From Lutimonas zeaxanthinifaciens (GTDB lineage Bacteria; Bacteroidota; Bacteroidia; Flavobacteriales; Flavobacteriaceae): a DNA stretch of 64,000 nt. Position numbers and translations under genes: made by a program. The notes beneath the pieces are model-generated. The model saw only the letters and a program-made list of their open reading frames with translations, ran no database searches and was not told where the DNA came from. The DNA lies in assembly GCF_030503675.1 (NCBI RefSeq), contig NZ_CP129964.1, forward strand, positions 3,410,001-3,474,000. Direction: 5' to 3'. The first letter of the stretch is position 1; each line of letters starts with the position of its first letter. This document shows positions 13,535 to 37,440 of this stretch, piece after piece.

Positions 13535-14194
13535 TTAATTATTTTTCAGTTCCTCCATATCAGCCATTAATTCATCCAACTTTTTGAATACTCTGCCATA
13601 AACAATATTCAAATCCCATCTGTATATTATTCCCCCCAGCAATGTTAGGATAATTACAATAACAAGAACCGCGATGATTCCAATCAGAGGAACTCCCTGA
13701 ACAAGATACATCTCAGGATAGCTATTCAATAGTTTATCAACCAGCCTTTCACCCAATAACTCTCCTCGAACATCTTTAAACCAAAATCCAATGATAAAAG
13801 ACATAAAAATAATTGGATACAAAAATCGAGACCCGCGCTCATTGATGTTTATCTGATCTTTGATCCATTCATTGAAAGCTTTTAAGTATTGATAACTGCT
13901 GGCGCCCTTATCAATTTTCTCCAACTCATTAAGCAATCGCTTATTGACTGCCACAAGAATGCTCAGCGTTACAAAAAATATGATCCCCATAAGTGGGATG
14001 CCTATAAAAAATGAGACGATCAAAAAAACGGATGAAAACACCACGATGGCAATCAGGTTTATTTTAAACATTCTTTTGAACTTGTCAATGATATGAATTG
14101 ACTTTCTATTGTAGAGGTCCATTATTTTTGGAGCCACTAAGGCATCTTTTTTCAGAAATCCTTCTTTCCAAATACTTTCAATTGATTTTTCCAT
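13535..14194 (-). CDS. Membrane protein coupled to an ECF sigma factor (possible regulator)
   Basis: 219 residues. Four hydrophobic stretches are visible: INLIAIVVFSSVFLIVSFFIG and IPLMGIIFFVTLSILVAV near 45-85, FLYPIIFMSFIIGFWF near 123-138, and PLIGIIAVLVIVIILTLLGGII near 170-190. The N-terminus (about 40 residues) is charged and cytoplasmic. The ATG lies inside the end of the sigma factor gene (17-base overlap), so the two are translationally linked. By position it is a candidate anti-sigma factor or sensor, but there is no recognisable ASD/zinc motif, so this is inference only. Confidence 0.7.
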   Translation of the reverse strand: MEKSIESIWKEGFLKKDALVAPKIMDLYNRKSIHIIDKFKRMFKINLIAIVVFSSVFLIVSFFIGIPLMGIIFFVTLSILVAVNKRLLNELEKIDKGASSYQYLKAFNEWIKDQININERGSRFLYPIIFMSFIIGFWFKDVRGELLGERLVDKLLNSYPEMYLVQGVPLIGIIAVLVIVIILTLLGGIIYRWDLNIVYGRVFKKLDELMADMEELKNN

Positions 14195-14669
14195 CCAGGA
14201 TCTTTTTTAATCGTTCTTTAATTCTTTTAATTCTAACTCCTATATTATTCTTGTTCGTACCTAAAATATCTGCTATTTCCTGGTAGGACTTTTCATCGAG
14301 GTATAATAATATGACACCCCTGTCAACTTCGGACAGCTGTTTGATACCGTCGTAAAGTATATTCAGATTTTCATCATCAAAGACGCCGCTTTCCTCACCA
14401 ACTTCCTCAGGGACATAATCAGACGCAAAATGCTGAACATTCCTTTTTTTCTTTTTCAACAAGGTCATACACACATTCAGGGTAATTCTGTACACCCAGG
14501 TAGACCATTCAGATTCAGCCCTGAAATTATCTCTGCTCCGCCAGATCTGCAGGCATACCTCCTGGTAGTAATCATCAAAATCTTGCTGAGAGTTCGTATA
14601 GGCTCTGCATAATTTTATGATGATACCGGCGTATGGTAAAATGGATACTTTGTAAAAATCTTCACTCAC
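14178..14669 (-). CDS. ECF-type RNA polymerase sigma factor
   Basis: 163 residues. Region 2 is visible as DFDDYYQEVCLQIWRS (core-binding 2.1/2.2) and WVYRITLNVCMTLLKKKKRN (2.4), and region 4 as LSEVDRGVILLYLDEKSYQEI followed by ADILGTNKNNIGVRIKRIKERL, a helix-turn-helix for -35 recognition. There is no C-terminal extension, as expected for ECF factors. The downstream gene overlaps it by 17 bases and encodes a multi-pass membrane protein, the usual layout of a sigma factor with its membrane-bound regulator. The signal and regulon are unknown. Confidence 0.9.
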   Translation of the reverse strand: MSEDFYKVSILPYAGIIIKLCRAYTNSQQDFDDYYQEVCLQIWRSRDNFRAESEWSTWVYRITLNVCMTLLKKKKRNVQHFASDYVPEEVGEESGVFDDENLNILYDGIKQLSEVDRGVILLYLDEKSYQEIADILGTNKNNIGVRIKRIKERLKKILDGKIN

Positions 14670-20040: not shown

Positions 20041-20275
20041 AGATTTATTTTGAAGTTTCGAAGATACAAACTTGTCATTGGTTTCTAAAGTAAGTTCTAT
20101 TTAAAAATTTTTTGACCTTAATATTAACCTGTTTTTTTCATGGACGTTCCTTACCACCAGAATGGTTATTCATTCAATTTTCTTGGTAAAGGGTCCTAGT
20201 TTTACATAAGAAATAGAGATCCTTCAGGATATAGAAATTATTTGATTATAAATCTTTTTACCATCTTTGCTAACC

Positions 20276-20839
20276 ATGAATCCGGAACCGAAAAATATCA
20301 TTGAACTCATTAAACAAGGTGATAAAATCACTCTTGAAAAGATATATCTTGAGAACCGAGAAGGATTTATAAACTTCGCAAGGAAATACAATGTTAGTGA
20401 AGAGGATGCCATTGATATTTATCAGGATGCCATCATAATTTTAAGGGAAAATGCGGTAAATGGCAGAATTGACGAATTGCAGAGTAATATTTCAACTTAC
20501 TTATTTGCCATCGGAAAATATAGAATTTATCAAAATTTCAGGGTTCAGTCCAGAACTGAACTGACCAGTGATTTTAATCTTGTTGAAGAAAATTTCGATT
20601 TTGATGTTAACCTTTATGGTCAAATTCTCACTAAAGAGCAACAGTTATTAAAAAAATACTATGCAGAATTAGGTGATAGATGCAAAAGTATCTTAAATTT
20701 GTTCTATTATCAAGGTTACAGTCTCGATGAAATAAGAGATATACTGAATTATAGTAGTAAAACTGTCTTAAAGAGTCAAAAATCACGTTGTATAAAGCAA
20801 TTAAAGGATTTGATAAATAAGCACAATGGAAAATATTGA
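20276..20839 (+). CDS. ECF-type RNA polymerase sigma factor
   Basis: 187 residues from ATG 20276 (TTG 20267 is possible but less likely). Region 2: EEDAIDIYQDAIIILRENA and ISTYLFAIGKYRIYQNFR; region 4: LLKKYYAELGDRCKSILNLFYYQ and YSLDEIRDILNYSSKTVLKSQKSRC, with a helix-turn-helix. The downstream gene overlaps by 14 bases and encodes a single-pass TPR protein, then a CHAT protease gene converges from the other side. The upstream 230 bases contain CATCTTTG close to the start, one base off the TAnnTTTG box. Confidence 0.9.
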   Translation: MNPEPKNIIELIKQGDKITLEKIYLENREGFINFARKYNVSEEDAIDIYQDAIIILRENAVNGRIDELQSNISTYLFAIGKYRIYQNFRVQSRTELTSDFNLVEENFDFDVNLYGQILTKEQQLLKKYYAELGDRCKSILNLFYYQGYSLDEIRDILNYSSKTVLKSQKSRCIKQLKDLINKHNGKY

Positions 20840-21572
20840 ATTAATCGATCGTTATTTTAAGAATTCACTCTCTCCTGAGGATCAGAAATTATTCAATGAA
20901 TTACTTCAAAATAATTCGGAATTTAAAGAGGAATTTGTGTTCCAGAGAGACTTGAAAAAAGTTCTTTCTTCCATCCAACAAGATGAGTTAAAATCGACCT
21001 TAAGCAATTTTGAAGAAGAAACTGATAAGCATTCTTATTTTTCAGCAATTCCGAAAAGATGGTTAGTTGCTGCTTCAATAATTCTTATTTTCTCCCTTGG
21101 CTTATGGGGTGTAAAATCTACGTTTTACCCTTCAAATGAAGCCCTCTTTGCGGAGTATTATCAGGCAGATGAAAACACGGTTGTTCCGATTGTAAGAGGT
21201 GAGGAAATTAACAGCATAGAATACAGGGCTTTTGTGGCTTATGAAGAGAAGAATTACCATAAAGCTATAAATCTTTTTAATTCGGTCAGCGATCCCGAAC
21301 AAACACATATTCTTTACTACAAGGCTCTTTGCTACCTGTCGCTTGACAAATATGAAGAAGCTTTGAATCTGATGAATCAGGTTCTTGAGAGTCCATCAGC
21401 GGAAAATGAATTTTCTGATTTTAGAACTCGTGCCCACTGGTACAAGGCCCTTGCCAATATTCAAATGGGTAATAATTCAGAAGCAATTTCAGAGCTCAAT
21501 CTAATTATTGATCAGCAAAATTCTGTTTTCAAGAAAAAAGAAGCTCAAAAATTAAAAAATTATCTGGAGTAG
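20826..21572 (+). CDS. Single-pass membrane TPR protein, candidate anti-sigma factor
   Basis: 248 residues. The N-terminal about 78 residues are charged and helical (MENIELIDRYFKNSLSPEDQ, like the start of many Bacteroidota anti-sigma factors); one membrane helix follows (WLVAASIILIFSLGLWGV, about 79-96); the C-terminal part holds two or three TPR-like units (FVAYEEKNYHKAINLFNSV, ILYYKALCYLSLDKYEEAL, HWYKALANIQMGNNSEAI). Predicted topology puts the TPRs in the periplasm. The 14-base overlap with the sigma gene argues that it binds and controls that sigma factor; this is inference from layout. Confidence 0.75.
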   Translation: MENIELIDRYFKNSLSPEDQKLFNELLQNNSEFKEEFVFQRDLKKVLSSIQQDELKSTLSNFEEETDKHSYFSAIPKRWLVAASIILIFSLGLWGVKSTFYPSNEALFAEYYQADENTVVPIVRGEEINSIEYRAFVAYEEKNYHKAINLFNSVSDPEQTHILYYKALCYLSLDKYEEALNLMNQVLESPSAENEFSDFRTRAHWYKALANIQMGNNSEAISELNLIIDQQNSVFKKKEAQKLKNYLE

Positions 21573-21578
21573 AATTTT

Positions 21579-24446
21579 CTATTCGTTTTTCTTTCGTTTT
21601 TTTAGTCCGAAGATACCTAACCCAATAACGACTAAACTTAAGAAGGTCCATATTACTGGATGAGTTGATTGTTGAAGGTCTATTTCCTCAATATTCCCAT
21701 TAATTACAAAGCCGGACCAGTAATAAGGATGAGCCAATGCAGAATTTGCATTTTTATTAAGATAATTGATTTTTGCCCGTCTTAAGGCATGATTTTTTTT
21801 CTCCCCTTTATTTAAATATTTGTAAAAGTCAATCATAACTGATTTTGTCTGTTTGTCAGGGATCTTCCATAGACTCATAACAATTGAGGGCACACCAGAA
21901 AAATGAAAAGCCCGAGCCATGCTCATAACCCCTTCACCTTTTTCTATTTTGCCAAATCCTGTATTGCAAGCACTAAGGACAGCCAAATTTGCATTTGATT
22001 TCATCGTATAGATTTCAGAGGCTCTTAAAGGTCCGTCATCAAATAACAAACTGTTGTGCATTGGGTTATCATTATCGATTTCTGCGTGCATCGCCAGGTG
22101 TAAAATCGAAAATTCCTGACTATGGGCAGAAAAATTACTCTTAATAGCATTGCCGTCTGTAAATTTTGTCCCTCCCGTGATGTCCGAAATTTCTTCAATT
22201 TCACTCTTTGTATATGCCAAAGTTTCACTTTCCTGGTATTTTGGAGCAAAACCTGCCCAATTTTGAGGTGTCTCATAATTGAAAAACTCATTCTGTAATT
22301 CCATGTATAAACTTACTGACCCGTTGTAACTAACTGAATAATTTTCAATCAAATACGATCCTTTGGGTGTTTTTAGAGCCTCAAAAGGAATATAATTCAA
22401 CACATTATCAGGAATTATTATTAAATCACGTTTATCTTTAAACAGTTGCTGACCCATCAAATACATGTAGAGATCATAACTAAGCTCATCAATCTCCTCC
22501 CTTTTGGATAAGTGACTCTTAAAGTCATGGGTCACTTCGGTTATTTTAGAGGCTATATCCGCTCTTAAAAGACTAACCGTATCCTTTGTTATTGTAAATG
22601 AGAATAAACTTTCATCTCCTAAAAAATAGGTCAATACCTGATCATTAGCGTCCAGAACATCCTGAACTTCCTTAATTTTAACAATGGAATTACTACTTAC
22701 GCTGCTGTTGAATTTTGGGTAATTCGTCTTAAAATCGTTATAAATGCTATCCAATTTGTAGGTAAGATCAATTCTAAGATCCAGCAATGATTGATAATAC
22801 TCCTTATCCGGATTGCTGGCAGTTTTTTCAAAAAAAAGATCCATTTTAACCTTCTCAAGTTCCTTTTTGACGGATCTTTCCAATTCTTGTTTGTCTTGGG
22901 GAATATCACTAAATGCCATATATTTAATTCCCTGTAATCCTTTCAACAAAGTGGTGTTTCTGTTGGTTTCCGAAAGTTCAAATGCCTTTTCCAGGTATTT
23001 ATCATCTCTTGTTTCATGATATAGAAGCCAACAAATACCTAAGTCCTTCTCAAACACCTTTCGATATTTATTCGCAAAGTCAATTCTTGATCGGTCCGAA
23101 GAAAAGTTGCTTTGAGTAAACCTTATCAATTCGATTTTTTTATCGACTTGCGTATATGAATTTTTAAGAGACTCGATGTTTCTATTTCTTTCAAATTCAT
23201 CTGAATAGAAGTCGGTCAGAAGCATCAAGGCTCCAATCGCCTGAAGTGGGCCTATTACTTCAGTTGGACTGTCAGGGTCGTAATTTGCCGCTGTTAAACA
23301 ATGATCGATATATTTTAAAAATTCAGTTTTATCTCCCTTTACTTTGTACAACTTCGCCAATTGTAAATAATTCTCGGCCACCAGATCACTTATGTCACCA
23401 TAAATTTCCCTATTTGTATCCAGGGCCAGGTGTAATAAATTTTGTGCCTTGTTAAGATGAATTTTACGATCCAGATAAAGCTGTCCAAGAAAATTTCTTG
23501 CATTCGCAAGGTACTGTCTGCTGTTGATCTTCTTTCCTATCTCAATTGCCTTAAGATAATGTTCCTCGGCCTTATCATAATTTTTTATCAATACATATGA
23601 ATTCGCCAGATCGTAATTCGTTTCGCAAGTCCATCGATGCCATTCACCATAACTTTGCCTTCTAATCTTTAAATTCTTTTTTAGAAGATCAATAGCAGCT
23701 TCATATTCCTTTTTTGCTTCCAAAATATTCGCATACGTCGTGTAAACGAAGGTCATATTCGGGTTGAATTCACCATAAGAAGACAATCCTTTTTCAATAG
23801 CTTTTTCCACATAGATCTCAGCTTGTGCCAAATCCCCGGAATAAAAATGGATGAGTGCGATTCCCACGTATACATCAGAGAGAAAGTTTCTTTTCTCCTT
23901 ACTTTCTAAAAGACGCTTTTCAGATTGATAGTACAACTCAAGAGCCTTATCATTTTGACCCAGATCGTCATAAACCAATGCCAGGTTATAAGTGGACACA
24001 GCAAGTGCGTATGGATTGGTTTTAATTTTCCTTTTTATATCAAGGGACTTCTCATAGTAATAAGTAGTACTGTCATAGTCAGATTGAAAATAATGATTGA
24101 TGCCAATTGTATTCAAATTATCGGCAATTTTAACACTATCAAAAAGCTTCATACTAATTTGAAGCGATTTTCTGGCCAAAGCATTTGATTCTTCATAGTT
24201 TCCTAGATTCTGGACAATCTTGGCTTTAGTCTGATAGGTTACCGAAAAAAAGTTTTCATTTGAATTTTCTTCCTCCAGTTTTGATAATAAGGACTCCAGA
24301 ATCGCATTGGCTTCGACAAACTTACCGTCTCTGTTCAAGCCTAATGCTTCTCTGTTTTTTTCTAACACGTAAGCATCATCTATGTTCTGTCCCCAGCCAT
24401 ACTGAAACAATAGAATTACAACAAAACACAATCGTTTTACAACCAT
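21579..24446 (-). CDS. Membrane-anchored TPR-CHAT protease (caspase-like)
   Basis: 955 residues. A signal peptide (1-20, ending YGWGQ) is followed by at least seven TPR units to about residue 400 (for example ALAVSTYNLALVYDDLGQND, TNYDLANSYVLIKNYDKAEE). After a helical linker comes a CHAT peptidase domain with a probable catalytic His787 in LHLAMHAEIDN and Cys827 in AVLSACNTGFG, then GEGVMSMARAF and VPSIVMSLWKIPD. A hydrophobic helix near 930-948 followed by KKRKK anchors the C-terminus, so the CHAT domain should be periplasmic. It converges on the sigma/TPR pair with 6 bases between stops. Both catalytic residues are intact, so I expect an active protease. Confidence 0.88.
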   Translation of the reverse strand: MVVKRLCFVVILLFQYGWGQNIDDAYVLEKNREALGLNRDGKFVEANAILESLLSKLEEENSNENFFSVTYQTKAKIVQNLGNYEESNALARKSLQISMKLFDSVKIADNLNTIGINHYFQSDYDSTTYYYEKSLDIKRKIKTNPYALAVSTYNLALVYDDLGQNDKALELYYQSEKRLLESKEKRNFLSDVYVGIALIHFYSGDLAQAEIYVEKAIEKGLSSYGEFNPNMTFVYTTYANILEAKKEYEAAIDLLKKNLKIRRQSYGEWHRWTCETNYDLANSYVLIKNYDKAEEHYLKAIEIGKKINSRQYLANARNFLGQLYLDRKIHLNKAQNLLHLALDTNREIYGDISDLVAENYLQLAKLYKVKGDKTEFLKYIDHCLTAANYDPDSPTEVIGPLQAIGALMLLTDFYSDEFERNRNIESLKNSYTQVDKKIELIRFTQSNFSSDRSRIDFANKYRKVFEKDLGICWLLYHETRDDKYLEKAFELSETNRNTTLLKGLQGIKYMAFSDIPQDKQELERSVKKELEKVKMDLFFEKTASNPDKEYYQSLLDLRIDLTYKLDSIYNDFKTNYPKFNSSVSSNSIVKIKEVQDVLDANDQVLTYFLGDESLFSFTITKDTVSLLRADIASKITEVTHDFKSHLSKREEIDELSYDLYMYLMGQQLFKDKRDLIIIPDNVLNYIPFEALKTPKGSYLIENYSVSYNGSVSLYMELQNEFFNYETPQNWAGFAPKYQESETLAYTKSEIEEISDITGGTKFTDGNAIKSNFSAHSQEFSILHLAMHAEIDNDNPMHNSLLFDDGPLRASEIYTMKSNANLAVLSACNTGFGKIEKGEGVMSMARAFHFSGVPSIVMSLWKIPDKQTKSVMIDFYKYLNKGEKKNHALRRAKINYLNKNANSALAHPYYWSGFVINGNIEEIDLQQSTHPVIWTFLSLVVIGLGIFGLKKRKKNE

Positions 24447-36470: not shown

Positions 36471-36929
36471 ATGGGAGTAAAAAAGATTTTTTTCGTAATT
36501 TTTGCCGTTATAATCATGGTATCCTGTTCTGATGATGACAGTTATGAATATCATTATGAATTGCTTCCTGTTGAGGATGCACAGGTGCCCGAGGTATTTG
36601 AATATGGACAGGTATATGACCTGACAGTAACATATATCCTGCCGGATGATTGTTATGTTAACAATGATGTTCTGTATAAGTACGAAGGTACCTCGAGAAA
36701 TGTAGCAGTAGTTTCGCTGGTTATAGAGAGTAATGATTGTGAAGACCTTGAATTGGAACAAGAGTTGACTTTTAGGGTACAAGCCCTTCAGAAGAACCCT
36801 TACATCTTCAATTTTTGGCAAGGTGACGATGAAAATGGAGAGCCCATTTATCTGACGGTAGAGGTACCGGTAATTAATATAAGCAATGTAAGTGCCAATG
36901 AGTTTGAAGAGACTCATACAGAATTGTAA
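36471..36929 (+). CDS. Small lipoprotein of unknown function upstream of an ECF sigma factor
   Basis: 152 residues from ATG 36471: the preceding in-frame codons, including an ATG at 36381, lie before a poor start context, whereas MGVKKIFFVIFAVIIMVSC is a clean lipoprotein signal with Cys19. The mature part is acidic (DDDSYEYHYELLPVEDAQV) and beta-rich, with a Cys pair (DDCYVNNDV and SNDCEDLE) that could form a disulfide. Its end overlaps the sigma factor gene by 32 bases, so it is in the same operon. Not a family I can name. Confidence 0.7.
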   Translation: MGVKKIFFVIFAVIIMVSCSDDDSYEYHYELLPVEDAQVPEVFEYGQVYDLTVTYILPDDCYVNNDVLYKYEGTSRNVAVVSLVIESNDCEDLELEQELTFRVQALQKNPYIFNFWQGDDENGEPIYLTVEVPVINISNVSANEFEETHTEL

Positions 36930-37440
36930 AAACGGAGATATTATCTCCCAGTCAGAGATTTATCATCTCTTTGCTGGGAAGCTTTTTGTTATTTGTCTGA
37001 AATATTCAAAGACGCAACAGGAGGCTGAGGACAATTTGCAGGAATCGTTCATTACAATATTTAAAAAGATTGACCAGTTCAAATTTAAAGGATCTTTTGA
37101 AGGCTGGATGAAAAGGATTGTTATCAATACGGCCCTTCAAACCTACCGACAAAAAAATATTATGAACCTGGTTGAAGAAAATTATCCCGAGGAGGTTGAA
37201 GTTGAAATAGACGAAAACAATATTTCTCTGGATTTTTTATTAAAAATTATTCAGGAATTACCTGAGCGATACAGAATGGTATTTAACCTTTATGTTCTCG
37301 ATGGTTTTTCTCATAAAGAAATTGCCTCCATGTTGAATATAGCAGTGGGCACATCCAAATCAAACTTGTCCAGGGCGAGGCTGATTTTGAAGGAAAAAAT
37401 AGAATTAAGTCAACAGCAAAAAAATGCAGGTCTGATTTAA
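36898..37440 (+). CDS. ECF-type RNA polymerase sigma factor
   Basis: 180 residues from ATG 36898 (a GTG two codons upstream is possible). Region 2: EAEDNLQESFITIFKKIDQF and FEGWMKRIVINTALQTYRQK; region 4: LPERYRMVFNLYVLDGFSHKEI followed by ASMLNIAVGTSKSNLSRARLIL, a clear helix-turn-helix. It overlaps the small lipoprotein gene and precedes a membrane-anchored barrel-type protein by 16 bases, making a three-gene unit. Confidence 0.92.
   Translation: MSLKRLIQNCKNGDIISQSEIYHLFAGKLFVICLKYSKTQQEAEDNLQESFITIFKKIDQFKFKGSFEGWMKRIVINTALQTYRQKNIMNLVEENYPEEVEVEIDENNISLDFLLKIIQELPERYRMVFNLYVLDGFSHKEIASMLNIAVGTSKSNLSRARLILKEKIELSQQQKNAGLI

Follow-up and report, generated by a model that had tools for sequence, protein, structure and literature searches.

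A conserved trio of sigma factor, membrane partner and TPR-CHAT protease in Bacteroidota, a candidate transmembrane proteolytic switch

We describe here a three-gene locus of Lutimonas zeaxanthinifaciens (Flavobacteriaceae) that probably encodes a transmembrane switch. The locus lies in a 64,000-nucleotide stretch of DNA, analysed in full and referred to as the window, which corresponds to bases 3410001-3474000 of a single-contig genome of 3.53 Mb. Its genes encode an extracytoplasmic function (ECF)-type sigma factor, a single-pass membrane protein with tetratricopeptide repeats (TPRs) that resembles an anti-sigma factor (hereafter the partner), and a TPR-CHAT protease that is predicted to be exported and anchored in the membrane. 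In our reading, the CHAT protein would act as a site-1 protease that cuts the partner after Arg124 and so frees the sigma factor. The three genes are found together across the phylum, and residue 124 of the partner covaries with positions 749, 825 and 864 of the protease, which supports engagement of this residue by the CHAT active site. The original prediction for this locus had put forward a periplasmic proteolytic switch of this kind, and its interpretation is supported overall; the steps that we infer are the binding of the sigma factor by the partner, the cleavage of the partner and the release of the sigma factor.

The gene layout is as originally described, in coordinates as well as in reading frames. 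The sigma factor gene runs from an ATG at 20276 to a TGA at 20837-20839 (an alternative in-frame TTG start lies at 20267), the partner starts with an ATG at 20826 inside it, giving an overlap of 14 bases, and the TAG stop of the partner at 21570-21572 is followed by 6 bases (AATTTT) before the end of the convergent CHAT gene at 21579. The sigma protein scores slightly above the Pfam cut-off for Sigma70_r4 and slightly below it for r2, and the NCBIfam anti-sigma match of the partner is weak (E 0.054, residues 74-123). The protease scores 187 bits against the CHAT family (PF12770, curated cut-off 24), and no other CHAT match occurs in the genome. The signal peptide, the C-terminal helix with its KKRKK tail and the hydrophobic run at residues 79-96 of the partner, all named beforehand, are present, and the catalytic His787 and Cys827 are indeed intact in the window and conserved in relatives. 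Both residues are kept in every triad (partner plus CHAT) with aligned letters at those positions, the gapped rows being L254, where CHAT is truncated by the fetched stretch, and L255, where the CHAT gene is in pieces. The features of the locus, in window positions, are as follows.

20276..20839, + strand: ECF-type sigma factor gene, 187 amino acids (NCBIfam sigma70-ECF 2.2e-16, Pfam Sigma70_r4)
20826..21572, + strand: partner, a single-pass membrane TPR protein of 248 amino acids with putative anti-sigma function (TPR matches, predicted transmembrane helix)
20826..21053, + strand: partner N-terminal region, residues 1-76, predicted to be cytoplasmic and presumed to bind the sigma factor (precedes the helix)
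21060..21113, + strand: partner transmembrane helix, residues 79-96 (hydropathy)
21195..21200, + strand: Arg124-Gly125, candidate site-1 cleavage bond (P1-P1'; conservation, covariation)
21234..21569, + strand: partner TPR region, about residues 137-248, predicted to be periplasmic (Pfam TPR, best stretches in residues 129-228)
21579..24446, - strand: TPR-CHAT protease of 955 amino acids, predicted to be exported, C-terminally anchored (CHAT 6.7e-55, TPR_12 6.4e-31)
24390..24446, - strand: CHAT signal peptide, about residues 1-19, MVVKRLCFVVILLFQYGWG (N-terminal hydrophobic signal)
21693..22439, - strand: CHAT protease domain, residues 670-918 (Pfam)
22086..22088, - strand: catalytic His787 (His in 54/54 rows, in 139/140 with one gap, and in 19/19 more triads)
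21966..21968, - strand: catalytic Cys827 (Cys in 54/54 rows, in 138/140 with two gaps, and in 19/19 more triads)
22200..22202, - strand: Glu749, proposed S1 pocket residue, judged from sequence to open the helix that follows the first strand
21972..21974, - strand: Ser825, proposed S1 pocket residue, Cys minus 2 (covariation, sequence order)
21855..21857, - strand: Asp864, proposed S1 pocket residue, Cys plus 37 (covariation, sequence order)
21603..21659, - strand: CHAT C-terminal membrane helix, about residues 930-948, followed by the KKRKK tail (hydropathy)

A reading of the locus as a defence system was set aside; PADLOC matches were restricted to the TPRs of the CHAT protein, and PHROGs returned one family of unknown function over residues 280-389 of the same protein (E 5e-11). 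Two more ECF-type sigma factor genes with Sigma70_r2 and r4_2 matches lie in the window, at 14178-14669 (- strand) and 36892-37440 (+ strand), and the 64-kb window thus holds at least three.

Linkage of the three genes

Linkage was assessed in 199 genomes of the same family, using the partner protein as the single query. This returned 108 partner relatives spread over 73 of the genomes, and the CHAT family was matched in 88 of the 199. A CHAT gene lies no more than 10 kb from at least 96 of the 108 partner relatives (among the CHAT matches listed, 150 places), where about one would be expected by chance, as estimated from CHAT numbers and genome size; the linkage is therefore not a chance effect. 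The remaining relatives comprise 11 on contigs without CHAT among the matches listed and one that lies 592 kb from CHAT. Among the 96, the genes are convergent and less than 500 bases apart, as in the window, in 40 (type A); CHAT is downstream on the same strand in 21 (type B); CHAT is upstream and divergent, mostly with intervening genes, in 30 (type C); and 5 have other arrangements. Lutimonas saemankumensis (L062), the nearest named relative among the genomes compared, has an identical local gene order and a partner that is 83% identical.

In the reverse direction, a profile search of 20 CHAT loci without a partner match found a sigma factor and a partner in 12, and neither in the remaining 8. 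The same linkage occurs in additional families, both within the class and elsewhere in the phylum, further loci having been drawn from a phylum-wide sample of 395 genomes; co-occurrence across Bacteroidota, which had been set as a test of the original prediction, was thus found. Altogether 182 loci were read, comprising 159 triads, 9 loci without a partner, 13 without a qualifying CHAT gene and 1 incomplete locus. Since most of these loci were chosen for a partner or CHAT match, 159/182 is not a linkage rate. A sigma factor gene adjoins the partner gene in 157 of the 159 triads. Counts over 157 triads given below exclude L254 (cut CHAT) and L255 (fragmented CHAT).

Some loci differ in the number or form of their CHAT genes. 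Three consecutive CHAT genes stand beside one sigma/partner pair in L261 (3413-14108) and two in L259, and two are found in tandem in L247-L249. The latter belong to the distant family f24 (L247-L251), in which CHAT has no C-terminal helix and shares the strand of the sigma/partner pair. In L255 (6258-10896) the CHAT gene beside the pair is in pieces, one of them a CHAT piece of 250 amino acids. L105 and L110 hold neighbouring CHAT-profile genes (about 1100 and 690 amino acids) without sigma factor or partner, which represent another CHAT group.

Partner residue 124 and the proposed CHAT pocket

In an alignment of 54 partners, the strongly conserved residue between the membrane helix and the TPRs is Arg124 (44/54); Met stands there in seven type B triads, Lys in two and Gln in one. 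Across 157 triads, residue 124 is Arg in 122, Met in 23, Lys in 9 and Gln in 3 (in L144, L146, L149, L170 and L237, Arg was assigned by visual inspection, the aligner being off by 1-2 columns). In 135 of the 152 rows counted, Gly or Ser comes next. The distance from the predicted helix to residue 124 has a median of 25 residues, with quartiles of 23 and 26 and a range of 15-33.

What stands at residue 124 is closely mirrored in the protease. In the first 54 triads, Asp864 and Ser825 accompanied all 44 Arg partners, and Glu864 and Thr825 all seven Met partners. Over the 157 triads, the pairings of partner 124 with CHAT 864 are Arg-Asp (122), Met-Glu (23), Lys-Glu (6), Lys-Asp (2), Lys-Asn (1), Gln-Glu (2) and Gln-Gln (1). 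Position 749 is Glu with every one of the 122 Arg partners and Leu, Val, Ile or Ala with all 23 Met partners, which fits a pocket losing its charge; position 825 is Ser with 118/122 Arg partners, Thr with 21/23 Met partners and Asp with 7/12 Lys or Gln partners. The rule that Arg goes with Asp864 and other residues go without it holds in 102 of the 103 triads that were fetched after the rule had been seen, the sole exception being L172 (Lys with Asp864).

When columns were ranked by how well one residue predicts Arg at partner 124, the top three of 377 CHAT columns were 864, 749 and 825 (correlation 0.963, 0.907 and 0.793), compared with 0.524 for the best sigma factor column and 0.599 for the best other column of the partner. 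Without Met partners the three CHAT values are 0.905, 0.749 and 0.573, and those for sigma factor and partner 0.508 and 0.349. Normalised mutual information places the 124-864 pair first of 60,762-64,308 column pairs, with and without the Met rows. Triads that differ at residue 124 occur together in 21 of 96 genomes. Of these, G105 holds Met and Lys, and 20 combine Arg with other residues; the protease triplets differ in 19 of the 20 (the exception is G036), so the covariation is not a species effect. The link between protease and partner suggested at the outset thus gains support at the level of single residues. Covariation of the juxtamembrane segment as a whole (residues 98-136) was dropped, as it accounts for 13 of the 20 top pairs with CHAT (3.1 expected) and also for 11 of the 20 with the sigma factor (3.1 expected).

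Position 825 lies two residues before the catalytic cysteine, as does Asp462 in the protease MALT1. By sequence order, CHAT 749, 825 and 864 would match MALT1 Asp365 (helix alpha-1), Asp462 (loop L4) and Glu500 (loop L5), which are reported to determine P1 specificity (PMC4357240). In a model of separase, Glu917, Asp1082 and Met1038 surround the P1 Arg (PMC4626109). In separase, MALT1 and gingipain R, which are of clan CD and specific for Arg at P1, this Arg is read by acidic residues at positions comparable to those of the pocket proposed here (PMC4626109, PMC4357240). They belong to families different from CHAT, and it is their order in the sequence that equates the positions. The solved structures that match the CHAT domain best by sequence (E values of 6.5e-6 to 1.2e-3) include 7zoq, 7x8a and 8d9f-h, whose chains bear the names CHAT domain protein or TPR-CHAT and are presumably all Craspase; the three 8d9 alignments have Gly at 825, Ser at 864 and a gap at 749, and are thus without the triplet.

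Several findings weigh against the proposed switch and its cleavage at residue 124. On trees, the Arg/non-Arg state needs 4-5 changes, of which 2 or 3 are forced by well-supported branches; independent pairs number 3 or 2 on starred branches (two datasets) and 4 on all branches, too few for sign tests to reach significance. None of these pairs is contrary for 864, about 0.5 of 3 is contrary for 825, and one common origin for the non-Arg rows withstands the approximately unbiased test (p 0.064, on 154 rows with the long rows L244, L273 and L274 left out). By mutual information with average product correction, the 124-864 pair ranks 2 or 3 and falls to 14 or 15 once the Met rows are removed. Segment 98-136 is enriched with the sigma factor as strongly as with CHAT (84 against 61 of the top 200 pairs), and for this reason only residue 124 counts as evidence. 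The N-terminal region of the partner contributes 41 of the top 200 pairs with the sigma factor, below the 62.6 expected, and thus lends no support to sigma binding. Asp864 is kept in 2/9 Lys-partner triads, and a further solved CHAT chain, 8rot (7.9e-6), combines Asp at 864 and Ala at 825, so that Asp864 alone is not special to triads. No sigma factor gene was detected in two of the 159 triads (L258 and L262). Finally, of the 14 partners without a qualifying CHAT gene in the fetched stretch, only L238 and L242 have clearly lost residue 124; L229 is ambiguous and the rest keep Arg, Lys or Met. Most of their genomes carry CHAT elsewhere. Among genomes without a CHAT match, residue 124 is lost in G356 (L242) and ambiguous in G437 (L229, L210), yet G473 has a partner, in a separate short locus (L195), that keeps Arg.

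These points bear on the view that the covariation is a by-product of the shared ancestry of linked genes, residue 124 being merely structural in the partner. The independent switches between Arg and other residues are few, 2 to 5 in number, other clade-marking columns score high too, and most partners without a nearby CHAT gene keep Arg, all as shared ancestry would have it. The sigma factor travels with the partner as well, however, and none of its columns exceeds 0.524 (0.508 without Met), compared with 0.963 (0.905) for CHAT 864. Moreover, the best three of the 377 CHAT columns coincide, by sequence order, with known specificity positions, and Glu749 gives way to an uncharged residue (Leu, Val, Ile or Ala) in every one of the 23 triads with a Met partner. 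We therefore hold shared ancestry to be a very improbable account of the covariation.

A further difficulty for cleavage is that covariation between P1 and S1 would show active-site engagement equally well if the partner were an inhibitor, its Arg124 segment lying in the CHAT active site as a pseudosubstrate while the protease acts elsewhere once the partner lets go. Securin acts in this manner as a pseudosubstrate of separase. In gingipain R, an Arg of the prodomain sits in the S1 pocket (PMC4357240). Inhibition of this kind nevertheless appears unlikely to us. The sigma factor gene in 157/159 triads calls for a release route, the Gly or Ser that follows residue 124 in 135/152 rows suits cleavage, and the steady distance between the site and the membrane suits a site-1 cut, although none of the three is decisive.

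Predicted topology, promoter elements and cargo

Topology was predicted by simple hydropathy in 158 triads, one short CHAT row being skipped. The CHAT protein has an N-terminal signal in 155, a C-terminal helix in 146 and both in 144, and the partner has a predicted helix in 157. Lys and Arg are more numerous on the N-terminal side of the partner helix in 149 triads, equal in 7 and fewer in 2. Given the CHAT signal and anchor, and the helix and charge bias of the partner, both TPR regions are predicted to lie outside the inner membrane in most triads. This agrees with the periplasmic placement of both arrays in the original prediction, to which opposite sides of the membrane would have been fatal.

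A candidate promoter was found in type C loci. The element GGGTAAC-N14-20-TATA, pointing away from the sigma factor and towards the genes between it and CHAT (the cargo), occurs in 17 of 63 type C loci, and in 0/63 does it face the sigma factor. Among other upstream regions 26/577 contain the element, all in type C loci; many of these are again the elements just described, reached from the cargo side. This element (for example in L095, L096, L100 and L121) may represent a sigma-dependent promoter of the cargo operon. In its strict form it is absent from types A and B. Another sequence, TGTTAACCTT, was considered as a promoter of the window type. In some ten type A relatives it precedes the called start of the sigma factor gene by about 27 bases, but the window lacks it at this position, and it was set aside.

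The cargo genes of the sampled type C loci encode proteins of secreted or surface type (ten proteins were scanned, one of them encoded beyond CHAT). In L084-L103 they include putative lipoproteins, a YadA-head repeat protein (L089), a protein sorted by the type IX secretion system (L087) and a DUF7849/DUF7619 protein (L100). L088 has a subtilase match, and similar-looking proteins lie beside CHAT in L086 and L102. The window locus has no such cargo.

The orientation of the type C element, towards the cargo and CHAT side in 17/63 loci and never towards the sigma factor, would suit a protease that is mainly an output of the sigma factor, that is, a regulated periplasmic protease with its substrate elsewhere and linked as a member of the regulon. 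Such an account leaves the covariation with the partner unexplained; moreover, in loci arranged as in the window CHAT is convergent, and none of 53 sigma factor and 56 CHAT upstream regions there holds the element. Little probability thus attaches to it as the main role of CHAT. Feedback by the sigma factor on the protease and cleavage of the partner are compatible and can both be true.

Related systems and proposed mechanism

Craspase (CASP) is the nearest known system. In Craspase, the TPR-CHAT protease Csx29 cleaves Csx30, which inhibits an ECF-like sigma factor (CASP-sigma), under the guidance of clustered regularly interspaced short palindromic repeats (CRISPR) RNA (PMC10028731). The comparison with Craspase drawn originally was apt for a TPR-CHAT protease with a sigma inhibitor; it does not extend to the CRISPR guidance. 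Both systems have a TPR-CHAT protease and an ECF sigma factor, and the partner would be the counterpart of the sigma inhibitor that Craspase cuts. Whereas Craspase (type III-E) is activated by RNA-guided Cas7-11, the CHAT protein here is predicted to be exported and anchored and its partner to span the membrane. With its signal peptide and anchor, the CHAT protein of the window is not of the non-exported Craspase kind, no genome search for Cas7-11 having been made. Craspase cuts at varied sites, namely A|S, L|D and M|K (PMC11106740).

The second relative is regulated intramembrane proteolysis (RIP) of the RseA-DegS-RseP-sigma-E type, with which the triads would share a membrane anti-sigma factor, a periplasmic site-1 cut, an M50 site-2 protease and an ECF sigma factor (PMC7593790). 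As in such systems, the ECF sigma factor gene adjoins the gene of a single-pass protein with a predicted cytoplasmic N-terminus. In contrast, no caspase-like protease is among the site-1 proteases listed in the available part of that paper (DegS, DegP, SipS, SipT and Prc), and the partner carries a TPR domain on its predicted periplasmic side. At the locus itself the protease is of the CHAT type and not a DegS-like serine protease with PDZ, no genome-wide DegS search having been made. One M50 protease match is found in the genome (G000:C1:2883812-2885062), which is weak evidence because M50 searches give matches in 14/14 control genomes. In Myxococcus and others, a metacaspase gene is predicted in an operon with a sigma-70 gene (PMC3501461); the protease there is a Peptidase C14 rather than CHAT, and neither an anti-sigma partner nor a cleavage site is described in the available part of the paper. 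PMC7159879 mentions neither CHAT nor sigma factors. No chromosomal triad of sigma factor, anti-sigma factor and CHAT appears among best-match titles of the part of the open-access literature that was searched.

Taken together, the switch would probably operate as follows. The partner would keep the sigma factor at the inner membrane through its cytoplasmic N-terminal region, and the TPR-CHAT protease, predicted to be exported and anchored by its C-terminal helix, would face the same periplasm as the TPR domain of the partner. A periplasmic signal may be sensed by the TPR array of the CHAT protein, which would then take the juxtamembrane segment of the partner with Arg124 in the Glu749/Ser825/Asp864 pocket, the step to which the covariation points. 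Cutting between Arg124 and Gly125 would constitute site-1 cleavage and leave a stub of about 25 residues beyond the helix, on which the single M50 site-2 protease and cytosolic proteases could act to free the sigma factor, as in RseA-type pathways. If the pocket of every protease is matched to the partner of its own triad, paralogous triads within a genome would be kept apart.

On a broader view, the triads may form a Bacteroidota-wide class of ECF systems with an exported caspase-like site-1 protease, in which a code of CHAT 749/825/864 against partner 124 separates paralogous switches and of which the sigma-release arm of Craspase is an RNA-guided offshoot or cousin; we rate the chances of this generalisation as even. 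The triads would combine the layout of RIP with a Craspase-like protease, and thus amount to a caspase-like site-1 protease. If this is true, a caspase-like cysteine protease joins the short list of site-1 proteases that start the destruction of an anti-sigma factor, and chromosomal TPR-CHAT proteins gain a defined substrate and a defined bond. The sigma arm of Craspase, in turn, gains a likely relative outside CRISPR.

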